NCBI RefSeq assembly: GCF_014204415.1
Contig: NZ_JACHLE010000001.1
Coordinates: 310,001 to 374,000 of the forward strand
Direction of reading: 5' to 3'
Source of the DNA: Chryseobacterium defluvii
Lineage (GTDB): Bacteria; Bacteroidota; Bacteroidia; Flavobacteriales; Weeksellaceae
DNA: 64,000 nucleotides
Shown here: piece after piece, positions 17,799 through 25,054 of the stretch
Layout: each line of letters begins with the position of its first letter
How positions within the stretch are numbered: position 1 is the first letter of the stretch
Notes under the pieces: generated by a model
What the model saw: the letters and a program-made list of their open reading frames with translations, nothing else
Database searches by the model: none
Told to the model about the DNA's origin: nothing
Made by a program: the position numbers and the translations under genes

Positions 17799-18767
17799 TT
17801 AAGTATTTTGATCATTTCCGTTTGAAGGGCGTTGTGTGTTTTTCTTTTTATAGAAATAATATCCTATTCCGGTAATCAGGAACAGAGGCCAAAACGGAAG
17901 AAGAAAGAGAAATATGGAGGTAATGACACCCCAGCCGGAAGAGATTGCGGCAAAAGATTTTTCTCCGAATGTTTTAGGCTCTTTTTCAGCTTCGGATTTA
18001 TCGGTAAGGGTTACGGTGAGCTTACAGATCGTATTATTGATATAATTGCTTCCGGAAACGTCAATGTTTTTGCTTTCAATATCCCCGAGATTGCTGCTTA
18101 GATCATTTACCAGGTCATCGAAATTCTGGATAGGCACTTTTATCTGCATATAATAAATCTTTTGGCTGGTTTCCGCATCTGATCCGTTTTTTACCGGTTC
18201 ACTGGCTACGTAAGAAAGCTCTTCGCTGGTGATATAAGCATTGTTTTTTTCTGCTTCTTCCCTGATGATCTCCTTTACTGTTTCTGCATTTTCAGCGTTG
18301 ATTGAGATATGGCCGGTCTTTACCATCCTGTTTTTGGCAGTGCTAAGTTCATAATCATCTTTTTTAGGCAGATCTTTATAAACTACTTTTGTTTCTTTAA
18401 TGACCTTGGGAGCAGGTACATTTACCACTATTTTTTCAGGTTTCGGGTCTGTGGAATCCTTCTTTTCCGGTTTTGATTCCAGTTTTGTGGAAGAAATCTT
18501 TTCAGCAAGAGAATCTATGCTTTTCGAAGTGGTCTCTATCTTTTCCCGGATGTCTTCTTTGGTATTTTCAAATTCTTTTATTTTAATATTGGCGGAATCT
18601 AAAACCTTGTTGGCAGTATTGCTGACCTCATCAACGGTATTGGAGGCAACTGCGACGGCGCTGTCTGCAGCATGTACGGCTTCTTCCAGTTTAGATTGTG
18701 CGATATCTGATTTTTTGCACATAATGAATGTACACGATACTACTGCTAATAGAATGAACTTTTTCAT
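17799..18767 (-). CDS. DUF4349 lipoprotein
   Basis: A 322-residue envelope protein. The signal segment ends in FIMC (Cys17 lipobox). An Ala/Ser/Glu-rich helical, probably coiled-coil, region (about 20-95) is followed by a Pro/Lys linker. The DUF4349 domain spans about 140-300 (MVKTGHISINAENAETVKEI, later IYYMQIKVPIQNFDDLVNDL and the NTICKLTVTL strand). A C-terminal hydrophobic helix at about 280-302, followed by YFYKKKN, anchors it to the inner membrane, which makes the lipobox less certain. The function of DUF4349 is not known to me. The gene converges on the cassette at 16381-17796 and shares its right-hand terminator. Confidence 0.85.
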   Translation of the reverse strand: MKKFILLAVVSCTFIMCKKSDIAQSKLEEAVHAADSAVAVASNTVDEVSNTANKVLDSANIKIKEFENTKEDIREKIETTSKSIDSLAEKISSTKLESKPEKKDSTDPKPEKIVVNVPAPKVIKETKVVYKDLPKKDDYELSTAKNRMVKTGHISINAENAETVKEIIREEAEKNNAYITSEELSYVASEPVKNGSDAETSQKIYYMQIKVPIQNFDDLVNDLSSNLGDIESKNIDVSGSNYINNTICKLTVTLTDKSEAEKEPKTFGEKSFAAISSGWGVITSIFLFLLPFWPLFLITGIGYYFYKKKNTQRPSNGNDQNT

Positions 18768-19013: not shown

Positions 19014-19955
19014 ATGTCAAGAGTTATACCCTTTTTATTCTTTTTTATAACTATATTAATCAAATCCCAAATCGGAATAAACACAGCTAATCCAACAGAG
19101 ACATTGGATGTGAACGGCACCATGCGTGTAAGAAATATTTCATCTTTAGGCTCTAATGCTTCTGCAAAAGATTCTATTCTGGTGTTTGATAATGACGGTG
19201 TATTGAAGAGGGTGACCGCTTCCCAGATCCTCACTCAGGCGAACGGTATTACTTCAATCTCTACTTCCGGGGTAATAAGCGGAAACGGGACAAGCTCCAA
19301 TCCTGTTACTTTAGGACAGAATGGGGCTGCAAACGGGCAGCTGCTTCAATGGAATGGTACGGGATGGGTTCCGGTTTCTGCTTCTTCTTTAGGGACTATA
19401 TCTTTAAATACTGGAACTTCAGGAGCCAATATCAATGTCTCCGGCTCGCCCGCTGCTTTGGGAGGAAGTATTACACTCAATATTCCGGATGCAGGTGCTG
19501 CTGCGAGGGGAGTAGTAAATACGGCAAGCCAGGTGTTTGCGGGAACAAAAATGTTTTCGGCAGTAGGAATTAATACAACCACTCCTAATGCTTCTGCGAG
19601 TTTAGATGCAAATGGCGCCTACAAACTTGGGAGTACGGGAACTGTCAATAAAAATATGATCAGTTTTTCTGCAACGGTAAATAATAATATAAATAGCGGG
19701 ACCTCTGCATTTTTAGGAGGGTTGTCCGCATCAAGGGTTTTAGATATTGATATTACAGTACCTGCTGCAAACAGGCCAACCTCTACACAGGCCGTTGTGA
19801 ATGTATCGCCGGCTTTTGATTTGCCGGGATCGGTCTCAATAGCATCGGCAAGACTTACCTCTGTATCAAACGTAAGGGTACGCTTTCTGAATAATGATGT
19901 TTCAAACAGTCAAACCATTTCCGGTACTCTTTACGTTAAAATCAATGAATTTTAG
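19014..19955 (+). CDS. Secreted beta-rich surface protein of unknown function
   Basis: A 313-residue exported protein. The signal peptide ends near IKSQIGIN (about residue 19). It has the N-terminal IGINTANPTETLDVNGTMRV motif seen at the start of many Bacteroidota surface proteins that resemble phage tail-fibre heads, and a second partial copy, GINTTTPNASASLDANG, near residue 185. The rest is Gly/Ser/Asn/Thr-rich beta structure. No T9SS sorting domain is seen at the end. A TAACTTTG at 18987-18994 is a good -7 box 20 bases before the ATG. Adhesion or structural use at the surface is inferred. Confidence 0.7.
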   Translation: MSRVIPFLFFFITILIKSQIGINTANPTETLDVNGTMRVRNISSLGSNASAKDSILVFDNDGVLKRVTASQILTQANGITSISTSGVISGNGTSSNPVTLGQNGAANGQLLQWNGTGWVPVSASSLGTISLNTGTSGANINVSGSPAALGGSITLNIPDAGAAARGVVNTASQVFAGTKMFSAVGINTTTPNASASLDANGAYKLGSTGTVNKNMISFSATVNNNINSGTSAFLGGLSASRVLDIDITVPAANRPTSTQAVVNVSPAFDLPGSVSIASARLTSVSNVRVRFLNNDVSNSQTISGTLYVKINEF

Positions 19956-19971
19956 CTTTGTTGAGATTGAA

Positions 19972-20192
19972 TTAGAATTATTTAAATCCTTCGATCTCTC
20001 ATCAGCTTCAATCCGAAAGATTTTTGAGGCAAGGTTTCAAGACTGCATTTTGCATCGTATTTATGATTTAAAAGTTATAGGTACAGCTGTTCCGATGATC
20101 TTTTTCCGTTCATTTCAGGAGTGAATAGGTGAACCATACTCTTGTTCATCAGCCGATCGATACCTTCTGCCGGCAGTTTGGACTTCAAAAGT
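19972..20192 (-). pseudogene. Decayed fragment of prfC (peptide chain release factor 3)
   Basis: On the minus strand this intergenic stretch matches the intact prfC at 23459-25054 over roughly codons 405-483. In one frame it reads PAEGIDRLMNKSMVHLF and then TPEMNG, against intact LAKGIDQLMDEGVAQLF and TLEMNG. A 1-base loss then shifts the frame to KIIGTAV (intact KIIGTVG), and later NHKYDAKC (intact EHEYGAKC). The nucleotide match is also plain: GTTCCGATGATCTTT against GTTCCTATGATCTTT, and CGTTCATTTCAGGAGTGAA against CGTTCATTTCAAGAGTGAA. Stop codons, a frameshift and internal deletions show that it is non-functional. Both ends of the gene are missing. It lies on the same strand as intact prfC, about 3.4 kb away. 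Borders are approximate. Confidence 0.85.
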
Positions 20193-20304
20193 TTTGTAAA
20201 TGATTGACAACAGCTTTATAAATTTCTAAAAAAAATCAAAAAAATGTTCAAAATGCTAATTATGAATAATTTAATAATTACATTTGTGTATTAATATTTT
20301 ATTA

Positions 20305-20805
20305 ATGAAAAGAGGAGTTTTATTAATGGTTTTCTCATTGTTTTTTGGATCTGGCAGCGGGTTGAGCTGTACAAATGTTTCTGCCGCAAAGAATATCGTT
20401 GAAATAGAACCGGCCATGAGTAAAAATGATAGTGAAATAAAATTTTCAGAAGTACGAAGATTAAATAAAAATATCTCCCTAAAAGAGTGTATGATTGTAC
20501 AGTCCTTGGAGGAAACGGTTAAGTTATACGGTTTGCTGGAAGATAAAAGGTTTTCCCGGTCAGAGCCAATTCCTTCACTTTCTGAAAATGAATTTCTTCT
20601 TATGCTGAAACCTGAACTGAAAAAACAGCAATACGGGGATATTGAAGTAATTAAAATAGAAGAAGAACAATCGGTTTTTAATGTTTATTATAAAGAAATT
20701 AACAACGAAGAATACTTACTGAACAAAGAAAAGAATCCTATACTGATTCTTAAAATAGAAGGGGAAATTCCTTCAAGTGTTAAACTAATACCTCTTAATT
20801 TGTAA
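20305..20805 (+). CDS. Exported protein of unknown function, upstream partner of a metalloprotease
   Basis: A 166-residue protein with a hydrophobic N-terminal signal (MKRGVLLMVFSLFFGSG); GLSC at 19-22 could be a weak lipobox. The mature part is charged and has no motif that I recognise (SLEETVKLYGLLEDKRFSR, ENEFLLMLKPELKKQQYG). I start it at ATG 20305. A -7 box TACATTTG at 20279-20286 lies 18 bases upstream and excludes the earlier start. The stop is 15 bases before the protease gene, so the two form one transcript. A role as inhibitor, chaperone or processing partner of the protease is possible but unproven. Confidence 0.68.
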   Translation: MKRGVLLMVFSLFFGSGSGLSCTNVSAAKNIVEIEPAMSKNDSEIKFSEVRRLNKNISLKECMIVQSLEETVKLYGLLEDKRFSRSEPIPSLSENEFLLMLKPELKKQQYGDIEVIKIEEEQSVFNVYYKEINNEEYLLNKEKNPILILKIEGEIPSSVKLIPLNL

Positions 20806-20820
20806 AAAAATGAAAATCAT

Positions 20821-23139
20821 ATGAAGAAAAAACTACTCATTTTGAGCACTTTGCTTGTATTTTCAGCGGCAGGATTTGCTCAACAAAATCACTGGAAGAA
20901 ATTTGATTCGAAAATTGGCAGCGAAATTCGTGAAAGCGGGGTAAGAATTACTGATTTCACTCTGTTTACGCTTAACGTTAAAGAGATCCAAAATCAACTC
21001 AAAAATTTGCCGGACAGTGATTTCCATTTGTCCCGCAAAGGAGTTCTCTTAAACTTTCCAAATCTTGAAGGAGGTTTTGATACTTACGAGGTTTTCGAAT
21101 CATCAACGATGCATCCCGATCTTCAGAACAGATATTCTGAAATCCGATCCTACACCGGTTTCAAAAAAGGTGACAAATCAACAGTTTTAAAGTTTAGTAT
21201 AGATCCTTATTTCGGATTTAACGGGATGATCAGAACTAATCAGGGAATTTATTATATAGATTCTTATACAAAAGATAATCAGGTCTATAAACTGTATGAT
21301 AGGAAAAAAGCTTCATCTCCTAACCAGTTTGAATGTCTTTTTAATGGCGACAGTGAGCTGAAAGAATCCGCTTTAAATGCCCAGAAAACAGTTGTTGATG
21401 CATTAAACAGAAAGTACAGGCTATCCATTACCACAACAATAGAATATACGGCTTATACTGCAACACAAGCTGGTGTGGGCTCAGGAACGGATGCCCAGAA
21501 AAAAGCGGCAGTTCTTGCGGCGGTTAACCTGGCTGTAACAAGATTGAATGAAGTTTTTGAAAGAGATATTTCTGTAAGATTACAGCTTATTGCAAATACA
21601 GACGCTTTATTCTTTATCAGTTCAGATACTTTCAATACCCTGAATGCAGGGCAGATGCTTACTGAGAATATTACAGTGACCAATAATATCATTGGTGCTG
21701 CTAATTATGATATTGGCCACTTGTTCTTTCAGGCAGCTGCAGGAAATGATAATGGTTTGGCATCCACTCCTTCAATCTGTGGAAACAACAAAGCCGGGGG
21801 CGTGACGGGTTCTGCAATTCCGGTAGGAGATCCTTTTGTGATAGACTTTGTAGCCCATGAAATGGGGCATCAGTTTGGGGCTATGCATACCCAAAATAAT
21901 AACTGTAACAGAAATGTACCTACATCTATAGAACCGGGAAGTGCAAGTTCTATTATGGGATATGCAGGAATCTGTCCTCCAAACGTACAAAATAACAGTG
22001 ATGCTTATTTTCATTCAATAAGTATTGCTGAAATGTACACAAGACTTACTTCAGGTTCCACTGCTACCTGCGGTGTTAAAACACCAATTAACAACGCAGA
22101 ACCTATTGTAAATGCAGGAGCTGATAAAAGTATACCGAAGAGTACGCCATTTATGCTAACGGCAACCGCAACGGATGCAAATAATGATGCACTTACCTAT
22201 ACCTGGGAGCAGATTGATGCGGGAATTGCTACTATGCCGCCTCAGCCGACAAGTGCCGTAGGGCCTCTTTTCAGATCTGTAATGCCTACAGCATCGCCGT
22301 CAAGATATTTTCCAAGATTATCAACCATTGTTGCAGGATACGACCCTACAATTGTAGCTCCTACAGATGTAAGAGCATGGGAGAAACTTTCTTCCAGAGC
22401 AAGAGATCTTAATTTTTCAGTTCTTGTCAGGGATAATAATCCTGTGGGAGGCCAGACGGGGCGTGACGATGTGAAACTTACCGTTGTAGATGGTGCAGGG
22501 CCGTTTGTGGTTACCTCGCAAAATACGACAGGAGTTGTCTGGAATGAAGGGCAGGCATATGCCATTACCTGGGATGTAGCCAATACAACAGCTGCGCCCG
22601 TAAGTACACCTAATGTAACGATCCTGTTATCAAAAGACGGAGGTCTTACTTTCCCGACTGTCCTGGTGGCGAGTACACCTAATAACGGGACTTATAATTA
22701 TACAGTTCCGGGAGGCCTTGGAACTATTAATAATGCCAGAATTATGGTGAAAGCGGTGGATAATGTATTTTTGAATGTTAATTCAAGAAACTTTACGATC
22801 AATTCATCTGTGGTGGTAATTCCTCCGGGAAATCCGGGAACTAATCCTGTGAAGGTATATCAGGGGCTGATGATCTATCCGGTGCCTTCAAGTGATGGAT
22901 ATGTTTATATTAAAGCTGATTTCCCGAGATTGCTTCCGGTTCGTCCTTATGTGGTTACGTATGAAATATACGCAATGGACGGAAAGCTTATAGTACCTAA
23001 GAAGACAAAATATATATTTGAGCAGCATTTGGAGCAAATAGACTTAAGACATTTGCCTACGGAAACTTATATGATTCATGTGACAGTAGATGGAGAAAAA
23101 ATTGTTAAAAAATTAGTAATGACTCCCTCTTCTAAGTAA
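20821..23139 (+). CDS. Secreted reprolysin-like zinc metalloprotease, T9SS cargo
   Basis: A 772-residue exported protease. The signal peptide ends at GFAQ (about 21). A propeptide-like region covers about 22-190. The zinc site HEMGHQFGAMH gives H346, E347, H350 and H356, the HExxHxxGxxH pattern of metzincins, with a downstream SIMGYAG (Met-turn) near 384. A beta-sandwich module (about 430-675) and a terminal domain (YPVPSSDGYVYIKADFP, later LPTETYMIHV and KKLVM) that fits T9SS type A sorting follow. It probably degrades host or environmental proteins outside the cell. It follows the 166-residue exported protein by 15 bases. The protease at 45653 is a paralog with the same layout. Confidence 0.88.
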   Translation: MKKKLLILSTLLVFSAAGFAQQNHWKKFDSKIGSEIRESGVRITDFTLFTLNVKEIQNQLKNLPDSDFHLSRKGVLLNFPNLEGGFDTYEVFESSTMHPDLQNRYSEIRSYTGFKKGDKSTVLKFSIDPYFGFNGMIRTNQGIYYIDSYTKDNQVYKLYDRKKASSPNQFECLFNGDSELKESALNAQKTVVDALNRKYRLSITTTIEYTAYTATQAGVGSGTDAQKKAAVLAAVNLAVTRLNEVFERDISVRLQLIANTDALFFISSDTFNTLNAGQMLTENITVTNNIIGAANYDIGHLFFQAAAGNDNGLASTPSICGNNKAGGVTGSAIPVGDPFVIDFVAHEMGHQFGAMHTQNNNCNRNVPTSIEPGSASSIMGYAGICPPNVQNNSDAYFHSISIAEMYTRLTSGSTATCGVKTPINNAEPIVNAGADKSIPKSTPFMLTATATDANNDALTYTWEQIDAGIATMPPQPTSAVGPLFRSVMPTASPSRYFPRLSTIVAGYDPTIVAPTDVRAWEKLSSRARDLNFSVLVRDNNPVGGQTGRDDVKLTVVDGAGPFVVTSQNTTGVVWNEGQAYAITWDVANTTAAPVSTPNVTILLSKDGGLTFPTVLVASTPNNGTYNYTVPGGLGTINNARIMVKAVDNVFLNVNSRNFTINSSVVVIPPGNPGTNPVKVYQGLMIYPVPSSDGYVYIKADFPRLLPVRPYVVTYEIYAMDGKLIVPKKTKYIFEQHLEQIDLRHLPTETYMIHVTVDGEKIVKKLVMTPSSK

Positions 23140-23458: not shown

Positions 23459-25054
23459 TTAATCCGGCTTGAATTCACTGATGAAATGAAGTTTTACATT
23501 CGGGAACTTTTCCTGGGTCATATGAATAGTGAAAGAAGAATCTGCCAAAAATACCAGTTGGTCGTACTTATCCCTGGCAAGGAATCTTTGTTTTAATCTG
23601 GCAAACTCCTTAAATTCTTCAGATTTTTCATCTGCTTCTACCCAGCAGGCCTTATGCATGGCAAGAGGCTCATAGGTGCATTTTGCACCATATTCATGCT
23701 CCAGACGGTATTGGATCACCTCATACTGAAGGGCACCTACTGTTCCTATGATCTTTCTGCCGTTCATTTCAAGAGTGAAGAGCTGGGCGACACCCTCATC
23801 CATTAGCTGATCGATCCCTTTTGCCAGTTGTTTGGCTTTTAAAGGGTCATTATTGTTGATATAGCGGAAATGCTCCGGAGAGAAGCTCGGAACTCCCTTG
23901 AAGTTTAGCTTTTCGCCTCCCGTTAGTGTATCTCCGATTCTGAAATTGCCAGTGTCGTGCAAACCAACAATATCTCCTGGATAACTTTCGTCCACTACTT
24001 CTTTTTTATCAGCAAAGAAAGCATTGGGAGAAGAGAATTTCATTTTTTTGCCCTCTCTCACCAGTAAATAGTTCTCATTTCTTTTGAAAGTTCCTGAAAC
24101 AATTTTTACGAAAGCCAGACGGTCTCTGTGTTTCGGGTCCATATTCGCGTGGATCTTGAAGACAAACCCGGTGAACAGATCTTCTTCAGGTTTTACAAGG
24201 CGCGTATCGCTCTCTTTAGGCTGAGGCATCGGAGCAATTTCGATAAAGGCATCCAGTAATTCCCTTACCCCGAAATTATTCAATGCAGAACCGAAGAACA
24301 CAGGCTGCAGATCTCCTCTCATATAATCTTCACGGTTGAATTCAGGATATACGGATTGTACCAGTTCAAGCTCATCACGTAAAGTCTGTGCAGCTTTGGA
24401 ACCGATGACCTCATCAATCGAAGGATCATTGATATCATCAAACTTAATTGTTTCTCCTACTTTTTGCTTCTTTTCCTCCAAAAATAACTGGATATTGTTT
24501 TCCCAGATATTGTATATACCCTGAAAGTCGCTCCCCATACCGATCGGAAGAGAAAGCGGAACCACACTTAATCCCAGTTTTTGCTCCACTTCATCCAGAA
24601 GGTCGAACGCATCTTTACCTTCACGGTCAAGTTTATTAATGAAAACAAGCATCGGGATGTTTCTCATTCTGCATACCTGAACCAGTTTTTCCGTCTGCTC
24701 CTCAACCCCTTTGGCAACATCAATTACTACGATCACGGAATCTACGGCCGTTAAAGTCCTATAGGTGTCTTCTGCAAAATCTTTGTGGCCGGGAGTATCG
24801 AGAATATTGATCTTATGATCTTTATATTCGAAAGCCAGCACGGAAGTCGCTACCGAGATCCCTCTCTGTCTTTCGATCTCCATAAAGTCGGAAGTGGCTC
24901 CTTTTTTTATTTTGTTCGATTTTACCGCACCTGCTTCCTGAATGGCACCTCCAAAGAGTAGCAGCTTTTCGGTAAGAGTGGTTTTTCCGGCATCCGGGTG
25001 GGAAATAATCCCGAAAGTCTTTCTTTTTTCTATTTCTTTGATTAAGTCTGACAT
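23459..25054 (-). CDS. prfC: Peptide chain release factor 3
   Basis: A 531-residue translational GTPase that recycles release factors 1 and 2 from the ribosome. GTPase motifs are intact: G1 SHPDAGKTT (18-26), G2 region RQRGISVATS, G3 DTPGHKDF (about 86-93) and G4 NKLD (about 140). Domain II and the C-terminal domain follow (EMNGRKIIGTVGALQYEV, EHEYGAKCTYEPLAMHKA). Length is normal. The gene is alone on its strand, with an intergenic repeat element behind it and the P-loop kinase gene divergent ahead. A decayed second fragment of the same gene lies at about 19972-20192. Confidence 0.96.
   Translation of the reverse strand: MSDLIKEIEKRKTFGIISHPDAGKTTLTEKLLLFGGAIQEAGAVKSNKIKKGATSDFMEIERQRGISVATSVLAFEYKDHKINILDTPGHKDFAEDTYRTLTAVDSVIVVIDVAKGVEEQTEKLVQVCRMRNIPMLVFINKLDREGKDAFDLLDEVEQKLGLSVVPLSLPIGMGSDFQGIYNIWENNIQLFLEEKKQKVGETIKFDDINDPSIDEVIGSKAAQTLRDELELVQSVYPEFNREDYMRGDLQPVFFGSALNNFGVRELLDAFIEIAPMPQPKESDTRLVKPEEDLFTGFVFKIHANMDPKHRDRLAFVKIVSGTFKRNENYLLVREGKKMKFSSPNAFFADKKEVVDESYPGDIVGLHDTGNFRIGDTLTGGEKLNFKGVPSFSPEHFRYINNNDPLKAKQLAKGIDQLMDEGVAQLFTLEMNGRKIIGTVGALQYEVIQYRLEHEYGAKCTYEPLAMHKACWVEADEKSEEFKEFARLKQRFLARDKYDQLVFLADSSFTIHMTQEKFPNVKLHFISEFKPD

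Follow-up and report, generated by a model that had tools for sequence, protein, structure and literature searches.

A decayed fragment of the release factor 3 gene prfC near the intact gene in Chryseobacterium defluvii, with similar fragments in relatives

Chryseobacterium defluvii carries, about 3.4 kb from its intact release factor 3 gene prfC and like it on the minus strand, a real, nonfunctional prfC pseudogene fragment that has lost coding constraint. Most likely (with a probability of about 0.6), this drifting piece of the prfC 3' region stems from a partial duplication within its own lineage, which would have placed it, in the same orientation, in the spacer between a gene for a DUF4349 protein and a gene pair consisting of a metalloprotease and its small partner. 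The homology of the relic, its orientation, its position, and its decay are all directly visible in the 64,000-nucleotide stretch of DNA analyzed here (the window), where the locus includes the following features.

17799..18767, minus strand: DUF4349 gene, the left border of the variable interval (Pfam, synteny)
19014..19955, plus strand: g19014, coding for a 313-aa protein without a family match, between DUF4349 and the relic
19977..20191, minus strand: prfC relic, decayed codons ~403 to 483, part of the RF3 C-terminal domain (alignment, tblastn, DNA profile)
20228..20307, plus strand: DNA upstream of the partner gene, also conserved in related genomes; it bounds the extra DNA (g19014 and relic) on the right (alignments)
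20308..20805, plus strand: small partner gene of the protease, which it adjoins in relatives
20821..23139, plus strand: reprolysin-like (M12B) metalloprotease with a secretion-system sorting tail, between the relic and the intact prfC (Pfam Reprolysin_4, Por_Secre_tail)
23459..25054, minus strand: intact prfC, peptide chain release factor 3, 531 aa (Pfam RF3_C; NCBIfam TIGR00503 and NF001964, above cut-offs)

Identity and decay of the prfC relic

The minus strand of positions 19956 to 20290 aligns to codons 404 to 482 of prfC (23459-25054) with a Smith-Waterman score of 92, well above rather than level with 1,000 dinucleotide shuffles (mean, 23.1; standard deviation, 2.5; maximum, 36) and with 812 other pieces of the window taken on both strands (maximum, 33). 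A DNA profile of prfC 3' ends, built from 58 loci that include the window's own, places the relic at 19977-20191 on the minus strand and at codons 403 to 483, with E values of 2e-25 in the set of spacers and 8e-24 in 1.25 Mb of flanking DNA. The match is thus far beyond chance, and it lies in the RF3-specific C-terminal part of the gene.

Three-frame translation and gapped alignment reveal frame-shifting gaps, deletions near codons 440 to 447, and a stop (one TAA), and the matched length contains no open frame, which confirms the original prediction of a prfC fragment decayed by a frameshift, stops, and deletions. Mismatches between the relic and the resident prfC are spread almost evenly over codon positions 1, 2, and 3 (13/70, 15/71, and 23/68, respectively), whereas in the same columns the resident gene differs from those of other species with mean mismatch values of 0.062, 0.009, and 0.421. 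Together with the frameshifts, deletions, and stop, this even distribution identifies the relic as a pseudogene fragment that drifts without coding constraint.

A tblastn search of the whole genome (3.87 Mb in 16 contigs) with RF3 as the query gave 9 matches and revealed no extra piece of prfC other than the relic, which was matched at residues 405 to 465 with an E value of 1.4e-4 and one TAA. Seven further matches fall in long open frames of 396 to 976 aa and, judging by these lengths and by the parts matched, we take them to be other GTPases. Functions unrelated to coding were also considered for the relic and rejected: no Rfam family matches positions 19800 to 20500 at an E value of 1, and neither promoters nor terminators are in excess over shuffled sequences (2 versus 3.5 and 0 versus 0.7, respectively).

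Source of the relic

Several measures point to the resident prfC as the source. The relic differs from it at 51 of 209 columns, compared to 53 for the next species. The resident gene departs from the genus majority at 27 sites, and the relic shares 16 of these derived states while having the majority state at 8, which ranks the resident gene 1 of 157 by shared derived sites. Against this, the share of the column bootstrap that favors the resident gene as the source is only 0.62 to 0.63 by log-odds and 0.46 by mismatches. Some rankings also differ by a narrow margin: the gapped score puts L049 (160) and L054 (156) just ahead of the resident gene (155), and the count of third-position mismatches is 22 for L052 versus 23 for the resident gene.

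Of the two trees that include the relic, the one based on third positions makes it the sister of the resident prfC (SH-aLRT, 87.7; the node is not starred). In the full-gene tree, its branch has a length of 10 and falls within another set of 53 rows, a placement that we read as a long-branch failure and hence as uninformative. For the resident gene itself, the end branch measures 0.2, with 85% identity to the closest of the 156 other rows. The possibility that the functional prfC is a mosaic was considered and dropped, as its nearest species differ from segment to segment and none of them is close. Derivation of the relic from the resident prfC, at a time when the sampled relatives had already branched off, is therefore supported but not proven, and the old duplication suggested by the original prediction gains support from the mismatch count, the shared derived sites, and the third-position tree, at a bootstrap share of only 0.62.

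The interval between DUF4349 and prfC

We compared 193 loci and the window; removal of 3 without prfC and of 30 duplicates left 161 distinct loci, which come from 160 of the 173 genomes of the genus (counting the window's own) and from one further named contig. DUF4349 lies to the left of prfC in 153 of the 161 loci. A reprolysin-family protease is encoded between them in 60 of these 153 (54 with a single copy and 6 with two) and was not found in the other 93. The intervals that lack the protease are at least 700 bases long in 24 cases and shorter in 69, and 21 of the 24 long ones hold reading frames of at least 90 aa, of different kinds. Thus, the DUF4349-prfC interval is variable across the genus in general. 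The six loci with tandem proteases (L043, L048, L133, L094, L206, and L230) indicate that this site can retain additional copies; the less similar copy is only 46 to 62% identical to the window's protease, so these are not fresh duplicates.

The arrangement in the window differs from the short DUF4349-partner spacer seen in nine loci, where only 223 to 234 bases, free of any prfC signal, precede the first aligned residue of the partner protein. Alignment to one such spacer (L039) shows that g19014 and the relic lie in extra DNA of the window, which runs from about 18880 to about 20230; these borders are rough, as a gappy alignment to L039 extends to 18985. On the right, the upstream region of the partner gene is 84% identical to that in genome G109 over 73 bases (20228-20300), and positions 20190 to 20232 weakly resemble protease-free spacers (z of 3.1 to 5.9 in four of the five tested). 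The g19014 gene is located to the right of DUF4349 in the window and to the left of it in all 7 relatives that carry it. Its upstream DNA matches neither the DNA upstream of g19014 in those relatives (z of up to 2.3) nor spacers of the protease pair (up to 1.4), and it matches a single protease-free spacer (L049; z of 4.0). The partner gene (20308-20805) has no family match in Pfam or NCBIfam; its relatives adjoin the protease in many genomes.

The original prediction held that a local rearrangement could have brought in the protease pair (20305-23139) that now separates the relic from prfC. The comparison does not support the pair being a product of the event that formed the relic: of the 60 loci (among 153) that have the protease, 55 are free of prfC signal in the spacer preceding it, and the block of DUF4349 and the pair is also found in three loci without prfC in the respective stretch (L119, L272, and L274). 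On the prfC tree, proteases of this family adjacent to prfC occur in branches far apart, and the pair has a patchy distribution; the proteases in loci bearing a relic belong to a class with 84% or higher identity to that of the window. Nor do prfC fragments appear to travel with the pair, as 20 loci with the pair away from prfC, plus L119, yielded no significant match (best E value, 0.38). At fourfold sites, the window's protease diverges from those of 11 class-A relatives by 0.41 to 0.50, only slightly below the 0.42 to 0.75 of six flanking genes, which argues against a recent import; the partner gene shows 0.25 to 0.47, lower than neighboring genes, from only 28 to 32 sites in each comparison.

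Similar fragments in related genomes

Scanning up to 8.5 kb to the left of prfC in the 161 loci with the profile, on both strands, gave significant hits only in the window (E value, 8e-24), in Chryseobacterium sp. JM1 (L047; 1.2e-8), and in Chryseobacterium oleae (L073; 0.0036). The next hit had an E value of 0.99, the best one in the right flanks had 0.57, and reversed flanks gave nothing at an E value of 10. When each prfC was compared by blastn to its own flanks in 153 loci, the same three stood out, with E values of 1e-16, 2e-13, and 8e-12, and the next prfC match had 2.5e-4. These three fragments are clear and share the same place and strand. In the profile, they cover codons 403 to 483 (window), 468 to 499 (JM1), and 484 to 500 (C. 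oleae).

A shuffle test on the prfC strand covered 144 spacers (60 preceding a protease, 78 from intervals with no protease, and 6 between two proteases; those with fewer than 60 or more than 1,500 bases were dropped). Five of them, all among the 60 before a protease, had z above 4: the window (34), JM1 (18), C. oleae (16), OV279 (L042; 6.8), and Chryseobacterium herbae (L046; 5.2). A repeat with 138 spacers and both strands returned the same five on the prfC strand (z of 42, 26, 14, 7.4, and 4.7) and, on the opposite strand used as a control, one spurious signal of z 5.0 in L053. The C. herbae signal is of equal size and hence indistinguishable from chance, so it was dropped. The OV279 piece is a probable, if weaker, prfC relic, since its alignment covers the same stretch as that of C. 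oleae. A weak piece at another prfC locus (L234; codons 460 to 484; E values, 0.99 and 0.28) was not counted, because L284 and L288, at other places, produced matches to almost that codon range (0.38 and 1.3). A search for partial DUF4349 copies as a parallel yielded only matches of 16 to 43 bases (lowest E value, 4e-5), and these were likewise set aside.

In a tblastn search of the 173 genus genomes with the RF3 C-terminal part, 11 had more than one match. Besides the window's genome, these are JM1, with its relic (one TGA and three TAA; E value, 0.009), genome G063, with a split prfC, and 8 genomes in which the additional matches are weak and lie elsewhere, in most cases within open frames of 270 to 437 aa; the C. 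oleae piece (genome G141) is below the reach of this search.

Origin of the relic

A partial duplication with one end inside prfC, at a breakpoint that we place near codon 403, and the other in the DUF4349-partner spacer would produce the observed order, orientation, and truncation, neither breakpoint being exactly readable. The route could have been a tandem duplication of the pair together with the prfC 3' end, followed by loss of the upstream copy of the pair; the codons after 483 would have disappeared when g19014 came to adjoin the relic. A search to the left of the relic for remains of another copy of the pair gave no match above a z of 2.6 in the window, L042, L046, L047, or L073, so that this tandem route with loss is one that we infer; full deletion of the upstream copy would likewise leave no remnant.

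The same end structure would result if incoming DNA carrying the partner, the protease, and prfC had recombined by a homologous joint inside prfC and an illegitimate joint at the other end, leaving the 3' end of the recipient's prfC as the relic. Patchiness of the pair across the prfC tree and the low fourfold divergence of the partner gene fit such an exchange. Riemerella and Elizabethkingia presumably belong to the same family as the window organism. Natural competence is reported for these two genera, and one-ended, homology-facilitated illegitimate recombination has been described (PMC3240628). Nevertheless, the divergence of the protease reveals no recent import, and the relic resembles the resident prfC, the 3' part of which would in that case be the donor's; we regard an exchange of this kind as possible but unlikely. 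The alternative in the original prediction, namely, that the relic is what is left of an ancestral prfC superseded by the present gene, agrees with the gapped score, which slightly favors two other species over the resident gene. It appears very unlikely, given that the relic resembles that gene, as the mismatch and derived-site counts indicate, and that the resident prfC keeps its usual neighbors. Further, prfC is matched in 172 of the 173 genomes of the genus, only once in 161 of these at an E value of 0.05, and the sole genome without a match is 73% complete.

The fragments in the relatives bear on whether the partial duplication favored here was confined to the window's lineage. A single ancestral duplication common to the window and the JM1/C. 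oleae clade, with a different course of decay in either lineage, would account for the same place, the same strand, and the shared use of the prfC 3' part, and the different codon ranges are what the remains of one longer piece would show. Yet the 21-row clade to which JM1 and C. oleae belong takes in their relics in 83.5% and 99.8% of bootstraps, respectively, but the window relic in 0.65%, and a shared origin would need gene conversion from the resident gene; we disfavor it and consider it improbable. Since the JM1 and C. oleae relics group with the prfC of their own clade, two independent events, one in the window's lineage and one in that clade, are the simplest reading and a likely one, a pattern that gene conversion could mimic.

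Relation to known systems

The prfC relic is an ordinary gene relic of a kind already known; its parallel elsewhere is mildly unusual. As in bacterial pseudogene fragments that arise by partial duplication, a piece of a gene lies between genes, has a stop as well as frameshifts and deletions, and is free of codon constraint. A pseudogene finder for prokaryotes, Pseudofinder, is available. The relic differs from ordinary fragments of this type in having counterparts from the same gene at the corresponding position of a second lineage. In Streptococcus pneumoniae, transformation makes tandem duplications (merodiploids) through unequal crossing-over, which yields a second copy of a segment in direct orientation, as proposed here (PMC3784515). 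Those duplications are about 100 to 900 kb long and bordered by repeats, whereas the one in the window would span about 3.4 kb, with imprecise breakpoints and only a scar remaining. Homology-facilitated illegitimate recombination (PMC3240628) could also leave a truncated direct copy by the target gene through its combination of a homologous and an illegitimate joint; in contrast to the cases described there, no donor or donor boundary was identified at the window locus. Among the matches listed, literature titles and the openings of abstracts contained no mention of a prfC relic in Chryseobacterium.

By itself, the relic is minor, but its recurrence at one spot in apparently two lineages, within an interval of widely differing contents, could matter. 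It is tempting, if rather doubtful, to suppose that cargo genes in the DUF4349-prfC interval of Chryseobacterium are exchanged by recombination that is repeatedly anchored in the prfC 3' end, the truncated copies being scars of independent events. Should the recurrence hold with denser sampling, the interval would represent a chromosomal cargo hotspot in which exchange events leave readable scars.

Two kinds of damage were seen in the genes themselves. In genome G003, a match to the partner gene 2.4 kb from prfC (contig C2, positions 4609956 to 4610216) contains four TGA and one TAA codons and is probably a decayed partner gene. The prfC gene is split over two frames in L077 (the same as L199), L114, L128, and genome G063, at a different place in each, which could be due to sequencing errors.
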